Below, one piece after another: positions 1,895-47,587 of a DNA stretch of 64,000 bases. Below the pieces are notes generated by a model. That model was not told the origin of the DNA and made no database searches. It saw only the letters and a list, made by a program, of their open reading frames with translations. How positions within the stretch are numbered: position 1 is the stretch's first letter; each line of letters begins with the position of its first letter. The translations under genes and the position numbers were made by a program. This stretch comes from Tubiluchus corallicola. Its lineage: Eukaryota; Priapulida; Priapulimorpha; Priapulimorphida; Tubiluchidae. The stretch lies in NCBI GenBank assembly GCA_030141605.1, contig JAQGDQ010000914.1, forward strand, positions 16,889-80,888, read 5' to 3'.

Positions 1895-4800
1895 TGTGTG
1901 TTTATCTCCTGTTTTTGAGGTCCACACGTTGTAAGAAAAACCTCATGTTGACTTCTTCGGGAGAGTCCCTGAAATTCGGTGACAATTAAGAGTTTGAAAG
2001 TTTTATGTTCCTGTTCTCGATAAAGCCTATAGTTACCTACTTGGGATATTACTTAAGCTGGAATTATATCATCCGTAGTGCCAGTTAAGCTAGTAGTGCT
2101 AGCAAAAATACTACTAGCACTAATGCTGTAGCCCTAGTAAAATGAAAACAAGAAGAACGGCCCGTTTAACTCAATTTGCCTAGGATGTAATTTAGGAGCT
2201 GAAAGGAGCTGTAATGTACTGTTTCTTTTGATAAGCATAGAATTATTCAGGAGTTATGACAACAACTTCCGGCTATTGTGACGTTCAGGTGGTAGTCCTA
2301 CCCGACGTTTCTTTGATCTTTGTAATTCCACTACTATGTCACCACTCTCCACGCAAAAAAGCTCCAGAATTTTGTGCCAAACGATGAGGCGGACCTTATC
2401 ATGCTTATCTCGTGCTGAGGACAGACTCACTAGTTTGCTTCATATACTGTCACGTCTGGAGCATCAGGATTAGCTTGTTATACTGGAGGAAGGTCAGCGT
2501 GCTTCTGAGACGACTGCAGAAGAAATAAAGCTATTAAGAAGTGGCCAAATTTCAATAGATTTGAGAATGTCTTTACGGATTTCATTTCATTAACTCTGCC
2601 AACAAGAATACTCTAAGTACACCAGTTGTAAAGGAAAAGTTTGTAGAAATACGTTACTTACTTTATGACGGCAATACGATGTAAACGTATCACTCCGCTT
2701 TCCTCTGGACTACACCAGCGAGGAAGAGAGGGGTTCCTGTTGTCTGGGAAACTCAGGATCTCCATACACCTTGCCCAGGCGTGCACCCTGGAGACGTTCA
2801 AGAATCGCACTACTCATCCACAGTCGACGCTGCAGCTCCATCAATGCGATCAATCACTGACTCTCTTGGCGGACACTCCATTGTCTTCCGAGCCAGAAGG
2901 AAGCCAACCAAACTAACGATATTTTGTACTTTGATTCTGACTCGGATTCATTTTTATTTTTTCAGCACAGTAATTCTTAATTATAATAAAGAATCTACAT
3001 GATTTTCTGCCAAACTCATTAAATGTCAAACTTAATACAGAGAAGTTACTACACTACACAGGCTACGAAGACTGCTCTTTATCAATTCACATTCTGCTCA
3101 TTGATACTGCTCAACTGTAACAGAATTTCGTGGATGTCATTTTTCAAAAGGTGCATCCTTCAAATTTTGCCATTTTTTAAAATTATAATTACTTTATAAA
3201 GTTTACACATAACCTTTACATTCTGTCAGTAGATGGCACCACTGCATGCTTCTACATGTTTCTAGCACCACAACACAGCGACTCTTCTAACCTCCAATCT
3301 ACATAATTTAAATTAGCTAAGTTAAAAAAACAAGCTAAAAACATAAAATTGAATACAATTAAGAAACTACCTTACAAGTGCTGTTACATTTGCAAGGTAG
3401 AAAACCGAAGGCTTTAACTTGACTGTTGTGGAGATCGCTGGCATCTATGAGAATTAAATAGAATATTTATGAATGTTCCGTTAGAATAATCGTCTTACCT
3501 TGTAGAATGTTCTGGAAGAAAACGTCTAGAATGTTCCCTGGCACCCTATATAACGTGAAGCAGGCCGCTGAGAGAGAGACACGGACGCCACTTACACATT
3601 CTCTTGTATACTTACATTTTCAGATACACTCAAACATTTTCCAGATTTTCACGTTTAGTGTAATCATTTCGTTCGCGTTCCTTCATACTTTTGTGTTGTA
3701 GAATTCTCGCTTAATAAACTAGTTTAGTTTGACGAAGTGTTTTCTGCTTTTCTCTACGAGCCTTCCGAGAGAAACAAAACACAACATTAACACAGCCTCG
3801 TTTTATTGCAGGTTACCTATCACTACTATCATCGTCATCATCATCGTTCTTGTTATCCTCGCCGTTGCCGTCATTGTCACCATCTTCCAGATGTCCTGCT
3901 GGGTTTTTCCGCTTGAAAGGGATGCGAAACTGTTCAAAATGGCTGAACTGTGAGGACTTAAAGAAAGTCGAAATGAAGGAGAAACATTTTGTCAACGGAG
4001 GCTCTAAAATGGTATTTGTTAATTAACAACTTTTTACAAAACAAAAGGAGGTCTTGTTCTTTTCAACATCACTAGTGTCATCTTGCTCAATAGTTAACAG
4101 CTAATTACGTGGAATTCAAAGCAGACTGTGAAAGTTTTCTTAAACAGGTCTGACACTTAATTGTGAATTAGAAGAATCGAGCAACTTCTTGAAATGACTT
4201 AGGAGACATAATTAATAACGTATTCTGATGTTTCTGAACCATGCTTCTATACTTCCCGTTAAACTTCTAGACTTTTTACAAAAACATGTCGTGAAAAGCA
4301 GGAACAGCAGCAACAACAACAGCAGTAGTAGCAACAGCAGCAGTAGCAGCAGTAGCAACAACAAAAACAACAGTAGCAGCAGCAGCAGTAGCAGCAGCAG
4401 CAGTAGCAGCGACAGCAACAGCAGCAGCAACATCAGTAGCAGCAACAGCAGCAGCAGCAGCGGAAATAGCAGCAACAACAACAGCAGTGGCAACAGAGCG
4501 GCATCAGTAGCAGCAACAGCAGCAGTAGCAGCAGCAGCAGTAGTAGTAGCAGCAGCAGCAACAACAACAAAAACAGCAGTAGCAGCAGCAGCAGCAGCAA
4601 CATCAGTAGCAGCAGCAACAACAACAGCAGTAGCAACAGAGCAGCATCAGTAGCAGCAACAGCAGCAGTAGCAGCAGCAGCAGTAGTAGTAGTAGTAGCA
4701 GCAGCAGCAGTAGCAGCGACAGCAACAGCAACAGCAGCAGCATCATCAGTAGCAGCAGCAGCAGCGGAAGTAGCAGCAGCAACAACAACAGCAGTAGCAG

Positions 4801-5657
4801 CAACAGCAGCAGCAACAATAACAACAGCAGCAGCAGCGCTTATGATGATCACGTTCGCGTTTCTCTCTCATATGTAAGTTTTCTTTTTGCAGCTTGACCT
4901 TGTAACGTGGAACAACCGGACAATCGTCATGGCCAAAATGAAAAGGAAACGCAAAGTGGACGGTAACTTGGCGGGAATGTTAGAAAACTACATCAAATTC
5001 CAAACCAAAACCAACGTTGTTCAACTCATTGGTTACTGCAACAAAACTTTAACAATTTGCACGGAATACCATAAACTAGGCAACGCAAAGACCGTTCATC
5101 AAGTTCTAGAACAATCGTCAGTTCATGATACAGCGAGACGTCGTCTAAAGTTGTGTATAGACTATGCAAGAGTCGCTGATTTCTTAGACAAACAAAACCT
5201 TTATCAGTGCGACGCACACAGATTGAAGAAACTGTTGTCACAGTACCTCCTCACGGATGACCACCAGCTAGTTCTCAATGACCTTGAAGATATTAAACCT
5301 CGGGAAGCCAGCTGCACGTATATGAATCTTACCCTACGTTCAGATCTGAACTTCGAAGCACCAGAATCGAGATTGTGGAACGACACTGAATGCACCACAG
5401 TTACATGTGCCAAGAAGCAGCGAGCCATCAAACACGCAAATGAAGTGTTTAGAATACCGGATGTTTGCTTGTCATTCTTCTTCGGGATTAAGGATAATTG
5501 GGACCAGAATAAAAGGGAAAGATTTGCTTTTGCTGTTGATACCCTAGCGCCCGTGCATCAGGCTTGTAAAGATGCGGATCCAAATAAGAGACCGTCAATA
5601 AACTCTGTTGTGAAATTTTATCGAAACGTTCTGGCAAAAAATTCGAAATTTAAATAG
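125..5657 (+). CDS. POMK: Protein O-mannose kinase (POMK/SgK196), 3 exons, 341 aa
   Basis: Exons 125-185, 3812-4011 and 4893-5657 join in frame (phases 1 and 0) through GT-AG introns. Known role of the family: an ER-lumen kinase that phosphorylates the O-mannosyl trisaccharide on alpha-dystroglycan. Residues about 6-25 form a hydrophobic signal anchor (KAVILISLLASVLYGYLSLL), as expected for a type II membrane protein. A serine-rich stem follows, then the CPAGFFRLKGMRNCSKWLNC segment that matches the conserved CP-G-F-MKNC-WL-C start of vertebrate POMK. Exon 3 carries the kinase core: VVQLIGYC, TEYHKLG, the catalytic-loop-like QCDAHRLKKLLSQYLLT, the NDLEDI metal-site region, FEAPE, and a C-terminal HQACKDADPNKRPS motif. 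Length is close to the human protein (about 350 aa). The start is the ATG at 125, in an exon ending in a perfect GTAAGT donor. Oddities: an LTR-like insertion ends 25 bp before exon 2, and intron 2 is largely a trinucleotide repeat. Confidence 0.9.
1808..1902. repeat. TG microsatellite
   Basis: A run of TG dinucleotides with a short GCGTGCGT variant section, preceded by TATATA. It sits in POMK intron 1. The remainder of intron 1 (186-3423) holds AT-rich unique sequence in which I see no gene. Confidence 0.95.
3424..3786 (+). mobile_element. Solo-LTR-like element in POMK intron 1
   Basis: The element starts TGTTGTGGAGATCGC and ends GAAACAAAACACAACA, giving TG...CA ends with a short inverted TGTTGTG/CACAACA. 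It contains an internal TTAATAAAC polyadenylation-like signal. Flanks TTGAC (3419-3423) and TTAAC (3787-3791) look like a 5-bp target duplication with one mismatch. A shorter relative lies in reverse orientation at 20090-20310. Confidence 0.7.
4298..4838. repeat. Imperfect AGC/AAC/AGT trinucleotide repeat
   Basis: About 540 bp of almost uninterrupted trinucleotides, mostly CAG/AGC with CAA, AGT, GAC and GGA variants. It lies in POMK intron 2 and ends about 55 bp before the exon 3 acceptor. Long open frames on both strands (poly-Ser/Asn/Ala on plus, poly-Leu/Ala on minus) come from the repeat, not from a gene. Confidence 0.95.
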
Positions 5658-8252: not shown

Positions 8253-8368
8253 AAGCCTACAGCACCTGGTATTCCTAGGCGGTCACCAATCCAAGTACTA
8301 ACCACTTCAGTGCTTAACTTCGGTGATCAGACGAAAACTGATGTTTTCAACGTGATATGGCCGTAGTC
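8253..8368 (-). rRNA. 5S rRNA-like sequence (gene, pseudogene or head of a 5S-derived SINE)
   Basis: On the minus strand the sequence runs from CTACGGCCATATCACG through CACCGAAGTTAAGCACT and TTAGTACTTGGATTGGTGAC to ACCAGGTGCTGTAGGC. These are the 5' stem, box A, box C and 3' stem of animal 5S rRNA in the right order, at about 116 nt. The two ends can pair (CTAC.GC with GCTGTAG), as in 5S helix I. There is no T-run straight after the 3' end, so a functional Pol III terminator is not obvious. A retro-copied pseudogene or a SINE3-type head is therefore as likely as a working gene. Its first bases overlap the stop codon of the tandem-STING gene on the same strand. Confidence 0.75.
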
Positions 8369-11206
8369 ATTGTCCAATACTGTCGGCCATTTTACTCATG
8401 TCTTTCACAATTCGTATGCAATATTGTCCCTTGCAGTCGTCGTTATTTTCCAATAAACATCTCAACGTCTTGACGAACTCCTCAACTTCTCTCCTGAGGT
8501 CACCGCTATCCACGTTCAAGTTATGATGATGGACCATTGCGTACATGGTTAGAAGGACTGCCGGACAATCGGCAACGAAATAAATATCCTAAAACAAAAT
8601 GAAAAACGTTTTATAAATCAGTTTGCAATTTAATTCCATTTTTGTAAATTTACAATTATTACAATCGTGTTATCATAACCTCTTAGGGAATACTAGACTG
8701 TCCAGACTTTGGTACGTGTTAGACAAACTACTGTAGAAGCTATTTTAACTTTATATTGTAATTCATGTATGATCTAGCAGAATCAATTTTCAAAAACAAC
8801 TGTAAGCCTTCTTTTGTATTCACTGTTAAAACAGTAAAAATAATCTGATCCCATTTAACCTAAGTATAGCTGCTACTTAGAGCACTGGTTGGCTTGAATG
8901 AGTCAAAAAAATGTTGAAAATAAAAGTATTCACGTCATATTTTTGCCATTGCACTTTTAAAGCTTGTACAAATGGAACCGTATCTGAAAACGTTACTCAC
9001 TTTATTATTAGTTCTGCATTTGTACACTGTGTTGCGACCGTAGTTTCGACCAACATTTCCAGCTCGGTCAATTTTTCTGTCTCCAAGGTGACCAGCTTTC
9101 TGAACACGTCCATCAGCTTCACTAAAACTTCCCGGACAATTGCAGTCTTCTGGAACTATTATCAGAAGAAATCCCTGTTGAATTTTTGTCCCAAATTCCG
9201 GCGAGGATGCCACAAACTTGTTAAATTCTGTAAATATTGTGAATTAAAATAATAATTGAGTCAATCTTTGTACGTAACGTAACTATCTTAATTTCAAGAT
9301 GATTTTAGTAGATTTATACACTAAGGTTATTAAATTTTTGGAATCATGGTTAATCATTAAAAATTTAAAAAAACTCAAAATTGGAACTAATCTAGGAACT
9401 AGAATCAGTATTTTTGCGACGAGTCCAAATAATAATGTTAAAACTGATAATTTTCCATAATTACAGACAACTCCTGCTCAAACTCTTTGCACGTTTTTTA
9501 TTCCAGAGCTTAGAAAATAAAAAAATCAAATCGCTATTTTTGGCAAAAGAAAATAACAAAGCCAAATAACTTTTGGCACTTCATATTCCTGATAACTGAT
9601 ATTTACATTTTGATATCATCATGCAGCTATTTCTACTTCTGACACAGAGCTACATTATAAGACATCACTGTTTCTGAGATGCTTACCAGGCAAAATGATC
9701 CTCAAATACCCCAAGTAGTACGACCATGCCAAACCTGCACCTACATGGGTTGGGATAGACTGTAGTGAGGAAACAGTTTCCTCAAATTGCTCTTCGTCAC
9801 TTTGTGAAATTCGTAGCGCTATCAAATCAGAAATGGTGGTCAGATCTTTGACTACAACGATGTCATACTGCCCTCTGAATGCTGGATTTGAAAAGAGGAG
9901 AAATTTAACAGTTCTGAGAAACTCTTGCATTTGCAACTGCAGCTCCTCTGGCAACATGTTAACGTCTCCACATTGTGACATCTCATAGAGATTCAGCAAC
10001 GGTGTTGCAAATTCACCAACAAAATAAGTCTCAACCTATAATGAACACCAGTAATTAAAAGATACATCCGACCAAAGAACAAATGAACGAATCAACAAAT
10101 CAATTAATCTACTATAACCATCCAGCCAGTCGGTAGTCGTGCCTTTACAGTATTTGCCTTTAGCAGTGTAAGTGTTTAGTAACTAATCATCTCTGTAAAC
10201 TCTTATTTCAGTGATTATCAATGTTTTTAATGGCAAATAAAGATTATTAAACATATATTATGCGCATAGTTAGCATTTAGTTAGAAGGACAATGGTCAGT
10301 AAAACAGTCAGTGAATTGGTTGGTCACGTCAGTGAATTGAGACGGCCAGCCACTCAGCAAATCAGACAACATTCAGTTTGGAAAGTTAGTCCGCAATACT
10401 ATGTTCGACTATGATAAGTGTTTTAGTTTGTAAAAAAGTTATCTTTTAAGTCTTGTAATAGCCTGATTCTTTATGAATTTAGCAATTACAGAAGAATGCT
10501 TCGCCCCTGACGAAAAAATTGCAAAAAATATACGTGTAACAGATAAATTTCTCAATAAAAATATAAAATCATAAAATGATAAAGAAGTAAATAAAATACA
10601 TTAGATATAGGCCTCTACTAGACAATGATATAATGACTCAATCAGCACTTACGTCATTTTGGGTGAATTTATATACGGAGTTTCGTCCATAATTACGTCG
10701 TACACTGCCTGCCCTATTGATAAACCGGTCCCCTAAATGGCCAGCGTGTTGAATTCGGCTGTCTGCCAAACCGAGGCTCTTGGGACAAAAGCAGTCTTCT
10801 GGCATTATGATAAAGAATTTTTTTGCTGATATTTTCTCTCCAAACTCTTCGGAGGATGCAACAAAAGTGCCAAAATCTGTAAATTCAAACCGTTTAATCA
10901 ATGAAATAAATTAACGCCGGTTAATTGGCTAATGATTTTGTTGCAGAATAAACCCTAAAATGAATTGGACAAACCAGAAAATTAAAACAGAGATTACACT
11001 GTAAAGGTAGACTGTATAATGCAAATAAAATTTAATATTGAAAAAGAGTTTTAGCTAAAGATATTTCATAGGCCTATAATAGTCTACTTCGATCACTTAC
11101 CTTTTAATATAATGTTTAGAAATCCATCGAAATACCCAAAAGCAAAGCCTTGCGCAGCATCTTTACTCACTTCACCAACGTTTAACGAACCACGTACATC
11201 AGACAT
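8367..11206 (-). CDS. Tandem STING-domain protein, 5 exons, 375 aa
   Basis: Minus-strand exons, in order: 11206-11101, 10876-10653, 10035-9687, 9227-9001, 8588-8367. All introns are GT-AG and the frame is kept throughout. The product has two copies of the STING cyclic-dinucleotide-binding domain. Domain 1 (about 15-200) has GFAFGYFDGFLNIIL, FFIIMPEDC, NRAGSVRRNYGRNSVYK and GEFATPLLNLYEMSQ. Domain 2 (about 206-375) has GLAWSYYLGYLRIILPE, LLIIVPEDC, DRAGNVGRNYGRNTVYK and YFVADCPAVLLTMYAM. These align with human STING GLAWSYYIGYLRLILPE, LYILLPLDC, DRAGIKDRVYSNSIYEL and LEYATPLQTLFAMSQ. Known for the family: STING binds cGAMP or other cyclic dinucleotides as a dimer and signals in innate immunity. 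There is no four-helix membrane region and no TBK1/IRF3-binding tail. An in-frame TAA just upstream of the ATG supports this start, unless a further 5' exon exists. Inference: a soluble, single-chain STING pseudo-dimer. Confidence 0.9.
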
Positions 11207-11303
11207 TTTAGTAGAACTTATATATTAGAAGATCGTTTCTGATATTATTCTGTCACAGTCGTAAGTTGACTTTAATTTGATCTCTACTGCGTTGCAGTCC
11301 CTA

Positions 11304-11313
11304 CTTATATATA
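11304..11313 (-). promoter_or_regulatory. Candidate TATA box of the tandem-STING gene
   Basis: Minus-strand GCTATATATAAGTAG lies about 100 bp upstream of the start ATG, which would leave a 5' leader of roughly 70 nt. It is the only strong TATA-like match I see just upstream. Confidence 0.4.
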
Positions 11314-11319
11314 GCATAC

Positions 11320-14300
11320 TGTTTCGGGGATCCCCATGCAAGTTGTTGTCAAAATAGAGAACCGGGGAAAACCGGATTGCTATCCTTTGTGAAACTTGCG
11401 TGCGCAGATGTATTTACAGATGTTGGTACTTTGACACGCCTACAGACACCCGTAGCCTTGCATAGAAGAACAGTTGGTTTGTAAGCAGCGTTTTGATTGG
11501 ATACAAAAGATGATGCACCCTGACGTCACATGATTAGCGTAACGGATACTACACTCCCCCTGGCACGAATCATCTGCTGCAGACGGTTTTCCCCGTCATA
11601 ATTTCGTCGAAGTATTCGTGTTTGCACTCCTTTCCTATTTGCTAAAGTGCGTCGAATCTAATGACAAATTTAGCAAATGCACGTAGCAACCACGCCAAAT
11701 TAAAGTGTAAATTCGTCTTAGCTACGATTAGTTTGGAGAAATCGGCGTAGTCATCAAAATCATGAGTTGATGACTAGGCAGATTCATCGCTGTATAATAC
11801 ATATTACCACAATTCCTGAAAAAAATATTAGCTGTATTAGGAAATAATTAGTAATTTGTTAAACTTGTTGTTGTCTGAAAAAGTTGATTTGAATGATGAT
11901 GTAACTGTAAAAAAATTCTAATGTAGCCTGTTAATTAAGTGCATATTTTATTTTTCACGGCAAGCTTGCAAATGAACTTCAACTTTCAATGAAATACTTC
12001 AGCCATATACCATTTTTTAGATAAATATTTTAGCAATTAGCAGCCTTTACTAATTATAAGTGATGCAATCTTAACAAATATATTGTCAGTTTGTGAAATA
12101 AGAGTAATTTTCGTCGCAAGTGTAACAATAATAATGTATAATAATTCTAGACAAGCCCGGAATTAAGACATGAACAGTATAAGCGTGTTGCACTACAATC
12201 AATGACTGCCATATTCCAACAAAATATTGTAGTGTTTTATACGTCATTTCTATTAAAAAAATAAAAAGGCTATTTTACAAATTTGCATTAAATTCTGAAG
12301 TTCTTAACTTTATTAAACACAAACATTAAATAAACCTAATTTGGTAATTTTACTAATTTATACGACGTTATATCGTTTATAAGATTGTAATTCATTAAAC
12401 TAAAATGTTCAAAGCGATCAGTTCATAATAATTCCAAATAATACAAAATGATGTATTTACTTACATCGTATGTCTCCATAAAGCAAATCTAGTATTTACC
12501 AATATATCTGCCAAATTATGTCACTATCATACTGTGAAAAACTATTTTTAAAGAAGCCTGTTAACGTCTACCAACTAACTCACTTGCCCAGGTAGAAACA
12601 GATTTGCACAGGTGAGTGACCGTGGTCACGTGACCAACGAGATACTTGGCGAAGTTCCCTAGGGCACCAAGGTCCCAGGGACGCCAAACTGGCAAAAAAT
12701 TGAAAACAGATATCATGTTAATAAAGTATTTTAAACAGCATAAAAAGCCTTACGATTCAAAATGTGAGGTAGAGGAACACAAGCGAATGTAAAATTTTTT
12801 GCTGTTGGCAGGGATCATACTTTTTCTGTAGCTGATTAACTTAATTAAAATTTGATTTTAAAGTCAATAAAGAATTCAAATGCCATTAATCCTATATAGA
12901 GCAATGGGATTTGCTTTATAACTACAATTTATGATTTATAATTACAACACTTTAATTAATCCGGCTTTGATTACAGTTGATTATGAGGATCATCAAGGAT
13001 CTTATTCTTTCTTGCTAAATTTTATGAAAACTATATTTAGCCAAGGTCTTCTCTACTTTTTCTGCTCACCAAGAAGAACCGATATTGCTGTGATCTTTTC
13101 TATTCCCCTTTGCAATGATTTCCTAACCTGGGCATAAAATCGTGCAATTTTTGCTAATATTTGCTTAAGCAAACAAAGGCTCATACTTTGAATATCTGAA
13201 TAATGATGTTTACTGGAAATCGTGAAATATATTATCTCCTCTGTGACGTAACACACCTCGTGACAACAGCTCACACAGCGTGACAACAACTACCTTTAGT
13301 AAACAACATAACAGCTAATGTTTAATCAGCAGGTAAACTGATTGTGCTTTTTCATAAAGACAAATTTGCAGGGCGGCAGTTATATTTGCACGGAGTTAAA
13401 ACTTCAAGTACCCGAAAAATGACTTTTCAATTTAAACAGAATGTAGAGACGAAGTTTCAAAGCACTGCAAAATACAAAGACATAAGTATAATAAAGAAAC
13501 TAAGCCAGTTAACATTGCTTTAAGATAAATGAGCATTAAAAATCTCTCTAGCCTTTGAACATCAAGCCTGCGATGTATTTCTTCTATAATTAACTGATCA
13601 TGTGCTCATCTGTAAGATTTATCCAGTTTTTGTATTTTTTTCGTTTGTTAGGTTACGGAAATGGAATAAATTTGATTGTTCCATTCAATAGACGACCCTT
13701 ATATCGACTGCTCGAGTTACATAAGTCCCAATGGCATCTTTTAACCTTGATTATAACCACATAAATAGAGTAAAATTAGCTAATATTACATTGATGTATA
13801 ATATAAATTTTGGCCACATTTGAGTAAATGTGGACCATGAAGATCTTATCGAGGTTTATAAAAGCTGACCAGAAAAGAAAATATTTTGCCTGAAAACATT
13901 TTGTCTGCATATGGGGTTTCTACGAGTGTCCTCGGTTACTCATAATCATGACAGTTGTCACGGATTCTCGTGAATGAGTTCAACCAATACCGAATAGCTT
14001 ATTCTCTACAACTTACACAAACCTACTTAGAGTAATGTTATAACTAGTCGTTTAAAAATTCACATATTCTCATATATGAGCTTAATTCAATACACCTTTC
14101 CATTCTGTAGCACTAATGTTTTCTTTATCATACGATTCACTTCATATTTTCAGATTATTTTCATTAATTTTTTTTACTTTTTTACTTTTTTTTCTTCACA
14201 GTGTGGGACAATCTAACAAGCCCTGCTTTTTGATTGCCCGCAACACATTTACATTTGTATATGTAGCAAACCTAAACTATGGTATATCTAAACTAGTTAT

Positions 14301-31800: not shown

Positions 31801-34800
31801 CTCTACTTAATCGGTTCTTCTCTCTTCTCTACCACGTTCGTTTCACGTCCGTTAGTGGCTTAGTCGAGTGACTTTCATCTTTTCCCACATCTAATCTATC
31901 ATTCCTGGCAGCTCTAATGCAACCCCGTTCATTTCTGTTACCGCGAACGAGATTTCTCTTTTACTGCGATGCTCATTCTCTCAAGTTCGTAAAACGTGGC
32001 TGACCTCACTACAGTGCCTGACCTCACTAGAGTAACCGACCTCACTACAGCAGCCAACCTCACTACAGCGGCCGACCTCACTACAGCGGCCAACCTCACT
32101 ACAGTGGCTGATCTCACTACAGTGGCTGACCTCGCTACAGTGACTGACCTCACTACAGCGGCTGATCTCACTACAGTGGCTGACCTCACTACAGTGGCCG
32201 ACCTCACTACAGCGGCTGATCTCACTACAGTGGCTGATCTCACTACAGTGGCTGACGTTTCTACCGTTTCTTATACTTTCCTTTTCAGTTTCACACTTTT
32301 GCCATATAATACAGCTTTGATTAGTAATTGCAGCATGAAAAGATAGCTGTCTGTTATCTGGCTAGAATTGACATTGTGATCCTGCATTGAGTTTGCTAAT
32401 GAAAATATCTGTGTCTGTTCAGGAAGCCACCTATATGTCACCACAAGGTGCAGGAAAAGCATCGCTGTCACTCCGGGAAGTGTCCACCTTGTCGTCAGTG
32501 CTGCGATATTCAACTGCCCTGTGGTCATCGATGTCCGAACACTTGTCACACGGCAGTATTGGTCAAGTTACAGGAAAAGGTAAAAAATTATTGAACTATT
32601 TGACAACATTAATTGATAGGTGTGACATGGAATGGCTTTTGTGATAAGGGTTATTGTGATAATGAATTATATTATTGATAGTGTTTTTCAAATATTTAAG
32701 TTTTGTTGTATGTTTTTAAGTAAGAGATTTTCTCTAGTTCTTATTTAACCAGTTGAAGTGTTGTGTGTAAGTAAAATGAAATCAATATATTTTATTTTGT
32801 GAGCAAAATTATTACACAACTTTGCAATATATATGAAATGACTTGAACTGTTTGTCTTTTATTTTGTGTTTCATAGTTGTTATAAGTAATTTTTCAAAGC
32901 AACATGTTGCTATAATCCGTTGCACAAATTATGAACAACTGATCATACATGTTGCAGAAGCTGTGTTCCTTTTTTGCAGATGCATGTTGCTTGTATGCTG
33001 TCATGTGTTAGATAATTTCTGCTTAGTTGCTCAATGATACATTGACTTTTTATATGTGTGGAAGTCATTATGCCTTACTATTTTAAGGGCACTGTTGTGA
33101 GGGCAGGCCCGTGGGAACCAGCGCCACAAGCTAGAGTTGAGTTGGTGAAGTATGATTGCAGACCGTGTATTGTTGCCGTACCCGTAACCTGCCACGGGAA
33201 GCATGAGGTAATGATGACTGTTAGTGTCTCTGAGAGGCATTTATGACAACTTCAAAAGTCTCAGTTAAATTTACATGTAAACCACTGATCTTTATTTCTG
33301 CAATATTTAAAAATTAAAATAGAAAGGCAAAGGTGACTGACATTGGCTAATTTTATGAAAAGTTACATAGTTTAGTTAGATTTACAGTCATTTAGTCCAT
33401 TCAAAAATATCAATGAATAAATCAAAATAAAAATTAATAGAAGTAAACTTACATCGTTGCGGCATATATCTAATGAAAAATTTCGCTAGCTTGTACAAGA
33501 CACATGTTCACATACACTACAGAACAGCATAATGAAAATATAACTTGGTCAATGCCCACACTTTAAACTTTCTAGCTAGATGGAGCCACCTTGGCTACAA
33601 AATTAAAATTTATTAAGTCAGGTTCACACTGGCCTTAATAATGATGCACAGTGAGATCCAGCCTTTGTAATGCTATGGACCAACTGTGTTAGTTTTTTGT
33701 TTATATGCGATGGATTTTGTAGTTTTGACTGCCTTGACCACTGGGAGATGCGCATGCCTAGTGGTCTAAGGTGTCTGCAATGTAAGCAGACGGTCGCTAG
33801 ATTTCCTATCATTCTTGTTTGGCAGCAAAATTAAGTTAATTATGGGTTTTAAACATCACCAGAGAGCATGTTCATCACTCTGTCTGAAATTCCTCTTCAA
33901 TTCGTCACTGAGAGTTTAACACCTCCCCAATTCTTCACTGAGAGTTAAACACTTCTCCAATTCGTCACTGAGAATTAAACACCTCTCCAATTCATCACTG
34001 AGAGTTAAACACCTCCCCAATTCGTCACTGAGAATTAAACACCTCCCCAATTCGTCACTGAGAGTTAAACACCTCCCCAATTCGTCACTGAGAGTTAAAC
34101 ACCTCCCCAATTCGTCACTGAGAGTTAAACACCTCTCCAATTCGTCACTGAGAATTAAACACCTCCCCAATTTGTCACTGAGAGTTAAACACCTCCCCAA
34201 TTCGTCACTGAGAGCTAAACACTTCCCCAATTTGTCACTGATAGTTAAACACCTGTCCAATTCATCACTGAGAATTAAACACCTCCCCAATTCGTCACTG
34301 AGAATTAAACACCTCCCCAATTCGTCACTGAGAGTTAAACACCTCCCCAATTTGTCACTGAGAGTTAAACACCTCCTCAATTCGTCACTGAGACTTAAAC
34401 ACCTCCCCAATTCGTCAGTGAGAGTTAAACACCTCCCCAATTCGTCACTGAGAGTTAAACACCTCTCCTATTCGTCACTGAGAGTTAAACACCTCCCCAA
34501 TTCGTCTCTGAGAGTTAAACACCTCCCTAATTCGTCACTGACAGTTAAACACCTCCCCAATTTGTCACTGAGAATTAAACACCTCACCAATTCGTCACTG
34601 AGAGTTAAACACTTCCCCAATTCGTCACTGAGTGAATTAAACACCTCTCCAATTCATCACTGAGACTTAAACACCTCCCCAATTCGTCACTGAGAGTTAA
34701 ACGCCTCCTCAATTCGTCACCGAGAGTTAAACACCTCCCCAATTCGTCACCGAGAGTTAAACACCTCCCCAATTCGTCACCGAGAGTTAAACACTTCTCC

Positions 34801-37800
34801 AATTTGTCACTGAGAGTTAAACACCTCTCCAATTCGTCACCGAGAGTTAAACACCTCCCCAATTTGTCACTGAGAGTTAAACACTTCTCCAATTTGTCAC
34901 TGAGAGTTAAACACCTCCCCAATTCGTCACCGAGAGTTAAACACTTCTCCAATTCGTCACCGAGAGTTAAACACCTCTCCAATTCATCACCGAGAGTTAA
35001 ACACCTCCCCAATTCGTCACCGAGAGTTAAACACCTCCCCAATTCGTCACCGAGAGTTAAACACTTCTCCAGTTCGTCACTGAGAGTTAAACACCTCCCC
35101 AATTTGTCACCAAGAGTTAAACACCTCTCCAATTCGTCACTGAGAGTTAAACACCTCCTCAATTCGTCACCGAGAGTTAAACACCTCTCCAATTCGTCAC
35201 CGAGAGTTAAACACCTCTCCAATTCGTCACCGAGAGTTAAACACCTCCTCAATTCGTCACCGAGAGTTAAACACCTCTCCAATTCGTCACTGAGAGTTAA
35301 ACACCTCCCCAATTTGTCACCGAGAGTTAAACACCTCTCCAATTCGTCACCGAGCGTTAAACACTTCTCCAATTCGTCACTGAGAGTTAAACACCTCCCC
35401 AATTTGTCACCAAGAGTTAAACACCTCTCCAATTCGTCACCGAGAGTTAAACACTTCTCCAATTCGTCACTGAGAGTTAAACACCTCCCCAATTTGTCAC
35501 CGAGAGTTAAACACCTCTCCAATTCGTCACCGAGAGTTAAACACCTCACCAATTCGTCACTGAGAGTTAAACACTTCTCCAATTCGTCACCGAGAGGTAA
35601 ACACCTCCCCAATTCGTCACTGAGAGTTAAACACCTCCCCAGTTCGTCACTGAGAGTTAAACACCTCCCGTTTGAGAATTATTGCTACAGCATAGCAGTA
35701 TGCAAAGTAACAACATGTTTCCAATTTTACTGTAAATTTTTTGCAAACGGTGAAAAAGATTGCAGTCCTTTGAAGACCCCAAATTTATGTAAATTGTTTT
35801 TGTAGCTAGAATGATAACGAATTGAATTATAGTTAGTTTAATTCCTGTTTTTTCAGTAACATAAATTTTTGAGGCAGATCAATTTCGGCTTTGCGTGATA
35901 TTCTGTATACAGAAAAATCGATTTCTTTTATTTAAATAATCGTTTAGCATGAGCTATTAGAGAATATATGCAGACTCACTTTCGACCAGACGGTTTAGTC
36001 TAGTGGTAATGCATCTGCTTTCCGTCTGGGAGGTTGTGAGTTCGAACCAGCAGCCGGGTTATACCAAAGACTTTAAAAATGGTACCTGCTTTGCCCTGCC
36101 TGACGCGTGGTATTTAGGGTAAAAGTGGGGTAATAATAGTCTCTGTTATGTAGTTGTAGGTTGTTATTTACAGTCGGCGATAATAGCTCTTTGAGCTAAT
36201 GTTAATTGTTGACCCAAAAGCCGACTTTAAATAAAGATTATTATTATTATTATTATTATTAGCTTTCTTCACAAGTGGTTGAAGTAACACAAGTAATTTA
36301 TAGTTTTACTATAGAAAGTTACTACTCGGTTTCACTGACTGGAGTTATTATAATTTTAGATCACTGACTTCGCATGCTCCGAAGCAGCCCCGTATTCGTG
36401 TGGAAGAAATTGTGGACAACCGCTAGCCTGTGGTAATCATAGATGTACGCTCGAGTGCCACGTGGTAAAAACTTCACACAACAGCGGATCTCAGGTTAAT
36501 AGCAGTCATAATTAAGATGAATAGAGTTCTTTCGTAGTCTTAGATGTTTCATTGATTACAGTAATTGAGGTGGGCACTGTGGGTACTAGTTCTTGCTACT
36601 GTTTCATTTCACTTTGACTTCGAATTATCAACTCAAAAGTTGAACCATAGGGACACTGACTGTGAAAATCATTTTTGAAATTGTTGTTCAGTCACTTTGT
36701 TATGATTGAGTTTAGGCACAGAGAAGTATGGATAGGAACCAAAAATCTATAATAAATATTTGCACTGCACACAACAGAAAGTGTTTATTGAACTACAGAA
36801 AACATGAGTAGCAAAACTGCTGCACTGAACATTGAGCAAAAACTAGAAAGCAAAAACAGTCAGTAAAACCTGTTTCACAGCCAGTATACAGGTATAGAAC
36901 TTGACCTATGCAGAGTTATACAGGCTTCACAACAACCATTAATTTTAGATAGGGAGAGGACCAGTGTGTATGTAGTCACTGGACCATACAATTATGCTGA
37001 AGGTAAGTCAGCTGGTAGAATGTAACAAGATTAGCACATAGATGGCAGCACCTAACTGCAATGTACAATTCCAACTTCCACACTGACATACTATTAATTA
37101 GCTATAGTTTTTATGTTTTTTTGGCTGTAGATGGGAGAACCTTGTGAAGAGTGTGACTCTCAATGTGACAAGCCTCGGCCAGAGGGATGTACACATGCGT
37201 GCCTAGAAGCGTGCCACCCAGGTAAAAACACGTAGAACTCGTATTTGTATTTACCTTTGTTGACTTTTTAAGACTCGTTGTAGTTCTAGGAATATAAAGA
37301 AGTCTTTTTTGTTGCAGCACAGGAAAACCCTCCACTTAAAAATGCGTCTTGAAATTTTATGCCACTTCCATACTACCTTTTTGCATACAGGGCTTGCATC
37401 GGCAACAACGCTGTATAAAACATGTAAATTTAAACTCCCTCGATGACAGTTAGATGCAGCTATTTTGACGAGGAGTCATTTGAAACAAGTTTAGATAACA
37501 CTGAGTAAAGTTCGAAAAACAATCAGAGCATTCGTCGTGCACACACCACTAATTAAGTAAAATTTTTAAATTACTGTAATGATGCTATGGGAGTGAAATG
37601 AGTACAAAAAAATCTAACCTGTATCAAAAGAGATTTGAGTTAGGCCCTTTGGGGCTTCGTTTTCAATTCTGAAAATAGAAAAAAATCTTTTTTAAAAGAA
37701 ATTAGTAAGTGAATGTGCTTGTGAATTAATATTTTGTAGCAGCCCAGGATGTACGCAGAAACAAGATAGTCAAATAGCAGCAAAATGCAGATACGCGAAA

Positions 37801-44836: not shown

Positions 44837-47341
44837 TTACCTTCTATATCTGTACCGCTTGAAGTGAAACCACAACTGAAAAATGCCATTGTGAAACTGA
44901 CAGCGGAAGCCGCGCTTGTAGGAGTACTCCCATTCTCGATTGACAACCTTAAATGCAATGTCTTCGTACGGCGGCCCTGCGCGAAATCTCAACATGGCAA
45001 AATCCTTGTTTTCCGGAAGAGGAGTCAGAAAATATTCGGGCGTTGAAGATTTGTCTATTATGTCCGGGTAGAAAATGTTGAATTTATACCCCTGTACGAT
45101 TTTAGGTGGCGGGTTATCAAAATCGTAGTGGGTCTGGTTATATTTGTTCCACTCAAATCCGGTGTGAACGCGATTGAAGAAGCGCGGCTTTCTCGGCCGG
45201 TATTTATCCTGCCACAGGTAAGAGGTGTTGTCAAGCGGAACCTCGACACTGAATTGAGCCTCTTCGCCACTCATGCCTTTCCTGGCTTCTCGCTCAAAAG
45301 CGGCATCTTCTGCAGACATGACTCGACCTCTTTCGGAAATTTCCCGTCTCTTGAATTGCAACCTTTCCAAGTCTAACATGGCATCCATAATGACAGTGCC
45401 AAGATCTAGATCCTTTTCCTTAGTTAGTTTTGGGCTATATCTGCCGGCTTCGTATTCTTCGTAATAGTAATTATTAACAATATCTTCAGTTTCTTCTTTT
45501 CCTGAACTTTGATCACCGTCTGCCTCTTCAGAAATCTTGATAAATTCGGCTGTGCTGTCTTCATCCCGTTCTTCTTTCACAGTAACATCCATAACACTGG
45601 GTACTTCAACCGGTTGTTCCTCCGAGCTAATAGTAATGTCACGTTCACCTCGCAATTCTTCTGCTTCTCGCTTTACTATGAGGTCAGCAATAGCTTCTGA
45701 CTGCTTGAAAGATTTCGCTGTGGCCTTTGGTGAATTTGTCACACTTCTGGGCAAACTTGGTCCAGGGGAGGGTTGACTAGTGCTGCCCTCCTGTGCTATT
45801 ATTGGAAACAATGGCATACTTTCCACACCTTGTTCTTGCTTTAGCTGGAATAATTTTTTCCGCAACAAATCCTGATGTCGATCGCGGAGTCGTGCTTTTG
45901 CCATGTACGCTTGCAACTGCTGTAGTAAAGACTCCCAATATCCTATATCAATACCTTCTTCTCCACTCCGGATTTTACTAATAATCTGCTGCTGTAGTAT
46001 TGCGAGCTGATTTGATGTCTTTCCCCGGAATACTTTACTAATGTCTTGTCGAACAGCGTCATTAATGCCTTCCCGCCTGGTGCCCACATGTTCCTTATTC
46101 AGAGGATCAATTTTCCGTAACTTATTTAGTTCATCTTCTGTAACAATTGTCATGTCTTTCCAATAATCGAGATTGTGAGCATCATCTAAGTCCATATAAA
46201 CTTTAATATCCTCCAAAAGATCTTCTAGATCGCCAATTGTTAATCCAGTGAGATAAGTGTACGGCTCGTTCATTTCAACTGCTTCAGTTTCTTCGTCCGC
46301 AGTTATGTATTTGGCAAGTAAGTCAATGGGCTTTGCTCTTCCATCTTGAATACGGATTTTTGATCTAAGTTTTGCTTGCTGTAGATGAAATTTCTCTTCT
46401 TGTTGAGACCAGCCGGCAAACTGTTCAGATTCCTTTGTCCGTTGTAATAACTGCAGTTCCTCTTCTCTCTGCAAGCGCTCGTGTTCTCTTTGTAAGCGAG
46501 CTTGCTTCACCTTTTCCAATTCCCTTCTATTTTCCTCTAGGTTTTTCATGTTCATTTTGGCAATCTCTTGATTTGTCAATTCTTGAAGACCCTCGTGCTC
46601 TAGTTTCTTTTTCCACACAAATGTATCAAGTAACGTCGCATCTCCAAATGGGTTATCGGTGTTGGTGTATCCGAGGTAGTCTTTGTCCCAGCCCATTTTC
46701 ATACGTCGTTGTCGCTCTTTTGCTTCCTTTTTGGCTAGCCGCCTTGCTCGTTTTTCTTCTGGTGTTTCATTAAGCTTCATTAGTTCCTTTTGTTTTAGTT
46801 TCTCTTCTTTCGTAAGTGGTTTACTTTCCGGAATTCTACGCTCGCTTCCGTCGTCTAGTTCCTGTTCACTAGACGCCGAGTCACTATTATTCGATGACGT
46901 TTGTCGTTTAGTAGGTTTCTTTTCCTTGCGTCGTATTGACTCCGAACGCGACCGTGACCTCCTTTTCCTGTGGTTCATCTCTTGTTCACTAGACTCGTTA
47001 CTGTCGGACGAACTTCGTGGTCTCGCACGTTTGGTCTTTTTCTTGTGCTGCTTTGGCAGTGGACTATGTCTTGATCGTTTCTTACGATATTCTCGTGATC
47101 TTGATCGGCTCTGTCGTCGTCGACGAGTTTTTTCTTTCGTTCTGCTATGAGAGCGAGATCTGCGTCGAGCGGATGATCTCCTGATTTCATCAGAACTTGA
47201 CGCGGTATTTTTTGGTCGTCGCCTTGGCGATGGCGACGATTCAGAACTGGCACTCGAATTTTCAGAGGACTGTGAATGCTGGTGCCACTTTTTCTCATAT
47301 CTACTTCTAGATCTATCATAGTCAACGTGCGGTTTACCCAT
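44837..47341 (-). CDS. CACTIN: Cactin, spliceosome-associated protein, single coding exon, 834 aa
   Basis: One uninterrupted frame starts MGKPHVDYDRSRSRYEKKWH and ends FHNGIFQLWFHFKRYRYRR, the invariant Cactin C-terminus. Residues 1 to about 180 are Arg/Ser-rich (RS-like) with many acidic and basic runs. About 190-330 is a charged coiled coil (EKLKQKELMKLNETPEEKRA, ELEKVKQARLQREHERLQRE). The middle conserved domain includes TGLTIGDLEDLLEDIKVYMD and REGINDAVRQDI. The last about 125 residues are the CactinC domain (YRPRKPRFFNRVHTGFEWNK). Known role: a nuclear protein linked to pre-mRNA splicing and, in flies and mammals, to NF-kB/Toll pathway control. Human CACTIN is 758 aa; the excess here is mainly in the RS region. 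A TTTTTTCCAG acceptor about 80 bp before the ATG (boundary at 47424) suggests a 5' UTR intron. Confidence 0.97.
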   Translation of the reverse strand: MGKPHVDYDRSRSRYEKKWHQHSQSSENSSASSESSPSPRRRPKNTASSSDEIRRSSARRRSRSHSRTKEKTRRRRQSRSRSREYRKKRSRHSPLPKQHKKKTKRARPRSSSDSNESSEQEMNHRKRRSRSRSESIRRKEKKPTKRQTSSNNSDSASSEQELDDGSERRIPESKPLTKEEKLKQKELMKLNETPEEKRARRLAKKEAKERQRRMKMGWDKDYLGYTNTDNPFGDATLLDTFVWKKKLEHEGLQELTNQEIAKMNMKNLEENRRELEKVKQARLQREHERLQREEELQLLQRTKESEQFAGWSQQEEKFHLQQAKLRSKIRIQDGRAKPIDLLAKYITADEETEAVEMNEPYTYLTGLTIGDLEDLLEDIKVYMDLDDAHNLDYWKDMTIVTEDELNKLRKIDPLNKEHVGTRREGINDAVRQDISKVFRGKTSNQLAILQQQIISKIRSGEEGIDIGYWESLLQQLQAYMAKARLRDRHQDLLRKKLFQLKQEQGVESMPLFPIIAQEGSTSQPSPGPSLPRSVTNSPKATAKSFKQSEAIADLIVKREAEELRGERDITISSEEQPVEVPSVMDVTVKEERDEDSTAEFIKISEEADGDQSSGKEETEDIVNNYYYEEYEAGRYSPKLTKEKDLDLGTVIMDAMLDLERLQFKRREISERGRVMSAEDAAFEREARKGMSGEEAQFSVEVPLDNTSYLWQDKYRPRKPRFFNRVHTGFEWNKYNQTHYDFDNPPPKIVQGYKFNIFYPDIIDKSSTPEYFLTPLPENKDFAMLRFRAGPPYEDIAFKVVNREWEYSYKRGFRCQFHNGIFQLWFHFKRYRYRR

Positions 47342-47587
47342 GTTTGTTCATGAAGCGTGGCACGTTGAGCGTTCTTTCAAAGACGCTTCAATACCTTACT
47401 TCTGCTGAATATCTTCACCGCTTTCTGGAAAAAAGTAAATTATTTAATTAATTTTCTTTACACAACTAGGTCTGGAAATTTCCATAAGCAACGTCTTCAA
47501 GAATCATCGATTATAATCCTATTCGTGAGGAAACTGTTTTGCAGGGTTCTTGTTAGTAAACTAATTTTACTGAATACAGTTATATAT

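Follow-up and report, generated by a model that had tools for sequence, protein, structure and literature searches.

A tandem STING gene in Tubiluchus corallicola

The window analysed here is a stretch of 64,000 nucleotides from the priapulid Tubiluchus corallicola (contig JAQGDQ010000914.1, positions 16,889 to 80,888), and it contains a gene that encodes one protein with two STING ligand-binding domains. The gene (C818) lies on the minus strand (11206-8367), an orientation that the original prediction, made from the DNA letters alone, had not given. Its five exons form a coding sequence of 1,128 nt specifying 375 residues. All four donors are GT and all four acceptors AG, the intron phases are 1, 0, 1 and 0, and the final codon is TGA; the open frame of exon 1 (11093-11224) starts from a stop codon a short way ahead of the ATG. 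The exons are listed below, with pocket positions in human STING numbering as assigned from a MAFFT alignment.

11101..11206, minus strand: exon 1, with the ATG and the first helix of STING domain 1; donor GTAAGT; aligns with the start of P0001, the closest public protein
10653..10876, minus strand: exon 2, the core of domain 1, with equivalents of R232, R238 and Y240; supported by splice sites and alignment
9687..10035, minus strand: exon 3, the end of domain 1 (E260, T263, P264), the linker and the first helix of domain 2, in a single open frame
9001..9227, minus strand: exon 4, the core of domain 2, with equivalents of R232, R238 and Y240; supported by splice sites and alignment
8367..8588, minus strand: exon 5, the end of domain 2 (D260, A263, V264) and the stop codon

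The Pfam family STING_LBD (PF15009) matches the protein in two places (E 4.5e-64 and 215.6 bits, the cut-off being 27), and the only families found at E <=0.001 are STING_LBD and prok_STING, both above their cut-offs. Both halves also resemble STING in searches of PDB sequences: the top match of the whole protein is 8ydn (C. gigas STING; E 2.4e-25), and that of the second half of P0001 is 8efn (coral Sp-STING3; E 4.6e-27). Two complete domains arranged head to tail, at about residues 15-200 and 206-375, had been predicted, and these results bear this out, the ranges agreeing to within a few residues. A profile search against the STING family, named beforehand as a test, finds both halves, and not just one, to be related to STING. 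Domains 1 and 2 are identical at 79 of 171 residues, and the intron positions in the first half of the gene correspond to those in the second, a pattern suggesting that a single STING ligand-binding domain was duplicated exon by exon.

Pfam detected neither the membrane domain STING_TM (PF23417) nor a TIR domain in the window protein or in P0001, and no caspase domain was matched in the window or in P0001. A hydropathy scan of the window protein, for which the control was weak, found no 19-residue segment at or above 1.6. A C-terminal signalling tail is a feature of vertebrate STING; none was recognised here by reading alone, with no motif search, and the chain ends shortly past the last strand of domain 2.

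The view that the two halves are separate genes or separate mRNAs, or that their union is an artefact of annotation, is highly improbable. No transcript of the exact locus was seen, and P0001 might conceivably be an intronless genomic copy, which would leave some room for this view. Exon 3 by itself, however, runs from the last part of domain 1 into the first part of domain 2, a second locus in the genome (C460) has an identical exon layout, and both P0001 and a further public protein, P0003, cross the domain junction. P0001 comprises 373 residues with 85% identity over 98% of the query. Its frame lies on a contig of 1,280 bases and crosses all four intron positions, the coding sequence in the window spanning 2.84 kb with its four introns, which makes it very probable that a single mRNA carries both halves in a close relative. 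P0003 is 93% identical to C460 over 292 residues, on a contig of 1,482 bases compared with about 9.4 kb for the first four exons of C460, and its end resembles read-through of the fourth intron. We infer that both contigs are assembled transcripts. A single polypeptide had been predicted at the outset, and P0001 supports this, for a relative rather than for the exact locus, by carrying both halves in one frame.

The STING family of this genome and its caspase-associated members

A six-frame search of the genome with PF15009, in which only the best candidates were scored, gave 22 matches on 10 contigs. There are ten STING loci, of which eight have two domains and the other two are broken, retaining parts of each half; the existence of a whole family with the doubled design had not been part of the original prediction. 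The intact loci are of three types:

Type 1 (C818, in the window, and C460): two domains with the same exon layout
Type 2 (C235, C414, C2160, C2192 and C1844): domain A in a single large exon, domain B split over two
Type 3 (C2317): six exon pieces encoding two domains, with a provisional first donor and middle junction

None of the ten PF15009 loci is a single-domain STING locus, although a diverged one could be missed where only best candidates are scored. A coral STING domain used as query (E <=0.1) gave 12 matches, all at the known loci C460, C818, C2192, C1326, C414 and C1844. The genome-wide search with PF23417 gave no matches, but there were none in 14 controls either, so that this does not establish absence; a diverged membrane STING, too, could be missed where only best candidates are scored. 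One broken copy, C1326 (L018 2600-6400), is a recent copy of the window gene that has kept the promoter and start and is missing most of domain 1; a long TAT-type run lies within its exon 4. The other, C1793 (L019), has in-frame stops in its domain 1 pieces and a short domain 2 piece.

The history of the family was approached through a tree of 33 domain rows, for which the program warned that long-branch joins, those of type 2 included, may be false. Domain 1 and domain 2 of type 1 come out as sister groups (98/94), and within either half C460 clusters with the window gene and P0001 (98/93 and 99/97), which places the type-1 doubling before the split between C460 and C818. Type-2 domains A and B fall into two groups (100/99 each); since each of these holds sequences from both Priapulus and this genome, the type-2 doubling looks older than, and separate from, that of type 1. 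The rows of C2317 are long and unplaced.

A search of public proteins with a type-2 STING model returned P0004 (655 residues) and four proteins of Priapulus caudatus, about 30% identical. Nearness to priapulids is suggested by these caspase-STING matches only, a COX1 search having found none. According to Pfam, a caspase domain (PF00656) and two STING_LBD stretches share one chain in P0004, P0007 and P0008; P0006 has two STING stretches with a caspase remnant below the cut-off, and P0005 two STING stretches with no caspase. In P. caudatus the full caspase-STING genes are LOC106806933 and LOC106806925, while LOC106810332 and LOC106817462 are without a full caspase. In the present genome, every one of the five type-2 loci has caspase-like exons upstream on the same strand, and no such exons were found in the type-1 or type-3 stretches (24 stretches searched). 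The p20 query came from P0004; the p10 query was derived from L013, whose own p10 match is therefore a self-match. The type-2 stretches with caspase exons are:

C235: L013, L027
C1844: L028, L016
C2192: L030, L012
C414: L014
C2160: L015

Among ten caspase-like pieces from the four loci other than C2160, nine match PF00656 and five pass its cut-off; both pieces from C2192 are below it, one without any match. A whole-genome search with PF00656 gave 11 matches on 6 contigs, with C235 the only type-2 locus among them. C235 and C1844 keep the motifs THG and QACRGG, which we take to be the catalytic His and Cys of a caspase; C2192 has SADG and HGCRGG, the His of the THG motif being lost, and at C414 and C2160 the last caspase exon only was seen. 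The order and strand of the exons, together with P0004, suggest that each type-2 locus is a single gene comprising caspase as well as STING exons. Neither these upstream exons nor the joining of caspase to tandem STING in Priapulus had figured in the earlier prediction.

Unlike half-sites and a candidate single-chain receptor

In the window protein Y163, G166, R232, R238, Y240 and M271 are kept in both halves; Y163, R232, R238 and Y240 are presumably ligand-contact positions. Domain 1 has F167, E260, T263 and P264, and domain 2 has Y167, D260, A263 and V264, with the same residues in P0001. In C460 one half has T263/P264 and the other A263/V264, with E260 in both. Because the halves differ at 260, 263 and 264, each chain, as judged from the alignment, offers two unlike half-sites. 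R232, R238 and Y240 are retained in both halves of all three type-1 genes. The halves of type 2 are also unlike, A carrying D260 and B carrying E260/T263/P264, and both are without R232; domain A of the Priapulus type-2 proteins has K238. Domain 1 of the window protein has D165 where the other type-1 rows and the PDB rows have a hydrophobic residue, near the presumed packing site of the dimer helix. Oyster TIR-STING, solved with 2'3'-cyclic GMP-AMP (2'3'-cGAMP; 6wt7), likewise deviates at 263/264 (G263, V264). A role for R238 in ligand contact is described in PMC9980059.

The products of the window gene and C460 are identical at 218 of 365 residues. The proportions of nonsynonymous (pN 0.259) and synonymous (pS 0.828, saturated) sites that differ are similar in both halves, which indicates purifying selection on each. 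Positive selection was considered in comparisons with C1326 and dropped: 276 bases of exon 3 gave a nonsynonymous rate (dN) of 0.063 over a synonymous rate (dS) of 0.016, but over the whole of exon 3 there are 13 changes at 269 nonsynonymous sites and 3 at 79 synonymous sites (Fisher p = 1). The corresponding figures for the first part of exon 4 are 6 at 130 sites and 4 at 35. Comparisons of C235, C414 and C2160 yielded ratios of 0.84, 0.59 and 0.68, none of them significant.

The window protein resembles animal membrane STING (human; Stylophora Sp-STING1 and Sp-STING3) in its ligand-binding domain, by Pfam, sequence and fold, and in the main pocket residues. Membrane STING, however, has a single ligand-binding domain following an N-terminal membrane segment, as set out for S. 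pistillata in PMC9980059, whereas the window protein has two such domains and no recognised membrane segment. Oyster TIR-STING (Crassostrea gigas 6wt6/6wt7; Saccostrea P0009) also has a STING domain without recognised membrane helices, but it combines a single STING domain with the TIR domain that the window protein lacks. P0009 (35% identity over 49% of the query) was the sole named match when public proteins were searched with a type-1 profile; the other three of the four proteins returned were already known, and no named tandem relative of type 1 was among them. The P. caudatus caspase-STING proteins share with the window protein the presence of two STING stretches per chain, but by the domain tree theirs is a different and older doubling, and the two full forms have the caspase that is absent from the window gene. 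The bacterial family prok_STING (PF20300) is matched by the whole window protein at 30.8 bits against a cut-off of 27.1, with no single stretch passing, and PF15009 is far the better match.

Forms of STING described in PMC10732462 are membrane proteins and TIR fusions, together with bacterial fusions to TIR, membrane, hydrolase or peptidase domains; its main text has no mention of tandem or two STING, of caspase, or of the string Priapul. STING is also listed, in PMC8195603, among domains fused to TRADD-N. No description of an animal tandem STING or caspase-STING was found in the literature searched, which took in few subscription papers, and within it 'two STING domains' referred to bacterial cases only. 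To that extent the original prediction, which knew of no well-described animal gene of such a design, is supported.

The most likely reading of the window protein is a receptor with one composite pocket per chain, acting beside the caspase-STINGs. Given in full, as a soluble tandem receptor whose domains would pair in-chain around one cyclic-dinucleotide pocket, and which would have no output of its own, it has about an even chance of being right. Residue conservation, the tether and the general design of STING all point to such a pocket. Domains 1 and 2 of one chain would pair to give a single pocket per molecule, built from unlike half-sites (E260/T263/P264 in domain 1, D260/A263/V264 in domain 2). 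With the partner covalently attached, pairing would occur at any concentration, and the fixed 1-2 arrangement might hold an asymmetric ligand in one orientation. More weakly, the window protein may be induced in immune responses and bind cyclic dinucleotides, either assembling together with the caspase-STING-STING proteins of the animal or competing with them for ligand; the ligand would perhaps be supplied by the animal's ankyrin-containing cGAS-like receptor (cGLR) enzymes.

Several points weigh against this proposal. An AlphaFold2 model of the window protein from a 3-row alignment is of low confidence (mean predicted local distance difference test score, pLDDT, 57.7; predicted template modelling score, pTM, 0.45) and, as it comes with no inter-domain error estimate, does not show how domains 1 and 2 are seated relative to each other. 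In deeper alignments the rows were stacked on domain 1, stretched or partly misplaced, and the structural rows from VIA-align cover model residues 12-190. The loss of T263 and P264 from domain 2 could mean that ligand binding there is lost, and D165 in domain 1 could weaken pairing. The role beside the caspase-STINGs, for its part, is suggested solely by their co-occurrence in the genome.

Domain 1 might instead pair with domain 1 or 2 of another chain, giving dimers, rings or filaments in which ligand drives cross-linking. STING filaments in bacteria and oligomers in animals, described in PMC9402430, offer a precedent, and the 17-residue tether in the AlphaFold2 model forces neither arrangement; the constant asymmetry of the halves is, however, more easily explained by fixed 1-2 pairing, and intermolecular pairing is considered somewhat unlikely. 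The original prediction had raised both a dimer inside one chain and linkage into filaments as possibilities, and both stay at that level here. A decoy or degenerate receptor, in which one or both domains fail to bind cyclic dinucleotides and the protein merely blocks or buffers others, would account for the lack of any recognised effector, for the absence of T263 and P264 from domain 2 and for F in place of Y167 in domain 1. This too is unlikely, in view of the arginines and tyrosine conserved in both halves of the type-1 genes and the similar purifying selection on each half, and the oyster protein of 6wt7 departs at 263/264 although it was solved with 2'3'-cGAMP.

Work on STING has dealt with a symmetric homodimer. 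In a natural single-chain form with two different halves the half-sites could be mutated one at a time, which is impossible in a homodimer, and such a protein could reveal links among ligand asymmetry, pocket closure and oligomer growth. It is tempting to suggest, as a possibility that we hold only tentatively, that an animal lineage, possibly near the priapulids, replaced the membrane homodimeric STING by soluble single-chain receptors with both pocket halves, some of them wired to caspase and others, like the window gene, serving as stand-alone partners or inhibitors. If so, the caspase-wired forms would be cyclic-dinucleotide-triggered death proteases in one polypeptide, and a pocket with two differing half-sites could read an asymmetric second messenger in a single fixed orientation. 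If active, the caspase-joined subfamily would let a single animal protein lead from a cyclic dinucleotide to proteolysis, which would be a direct version of the connection between STING and a caspase (Dredd) reportedly described in insects by Hua et al. in 2018.

Flanking elements and neighbouring sequences

The following elements flank the window gene:

11304..11313, minus strand: TATA-like box, about 107 bases before the ATG; from a pattern scan with 186 such matches in the window, and weak alone
11326..11335, palindromic: kappaB-like GGGGATCCCC, of the pattern GGGRNWYYCC (3 counts in the window over both strands, the palindrome counted twice); also in C1326
11364..11373, plus strand: kappaB-like GGGGAAAACC (2 in the window over both strands); also upstream of C460 and C1326
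8167..8367, minus strand: short interspersed element derived from 5S rRNA, beginning at the STING stop codon

The TATA-like box and both kappaB-like 10-mers recur in C1326 but, since this is a recent copy, are not independent evidence there. The 5S-derived element matches the Rfam 5S model at 8254-8368 (68.3 bits). Among the best 40 of 1,817 candidates there are 39 other copies with 87-90% identity, most of which start within a few bases of 8367, and the element seems to supply part of the STING stop codon.

Mab-21 is a family of cGAS-like enzymes, and the genome has nine matches to it. At eight of these loci (L036-L043, that is, all except C162) the longest frames contain ankyrin repeats in every case and Mab-21 with Mab-21_C in seven. 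A GSS...DEFD motif, which we take to resemble the cGLR active site, is present at six of the eight; at L042 the longest frame differs from the matched frame. Ankyrin-cGLRs as such were already known (PMC9980059).

Elsewhere in the window, an array of a 30-base unit (33898-35669, 59 copies) is open in a frame on both strands. An 836-residue open frame on the minus strand (44837-47347) has both cactin domains; this family is named for binding the NF-kappaB inhibitor Cactus. Finally, an AGC repeat of 181 copies (4297-5657) immediately precedes a frame whose protein kinase match is weak (PF07714; 24.6 bits, cut-off 23.1).
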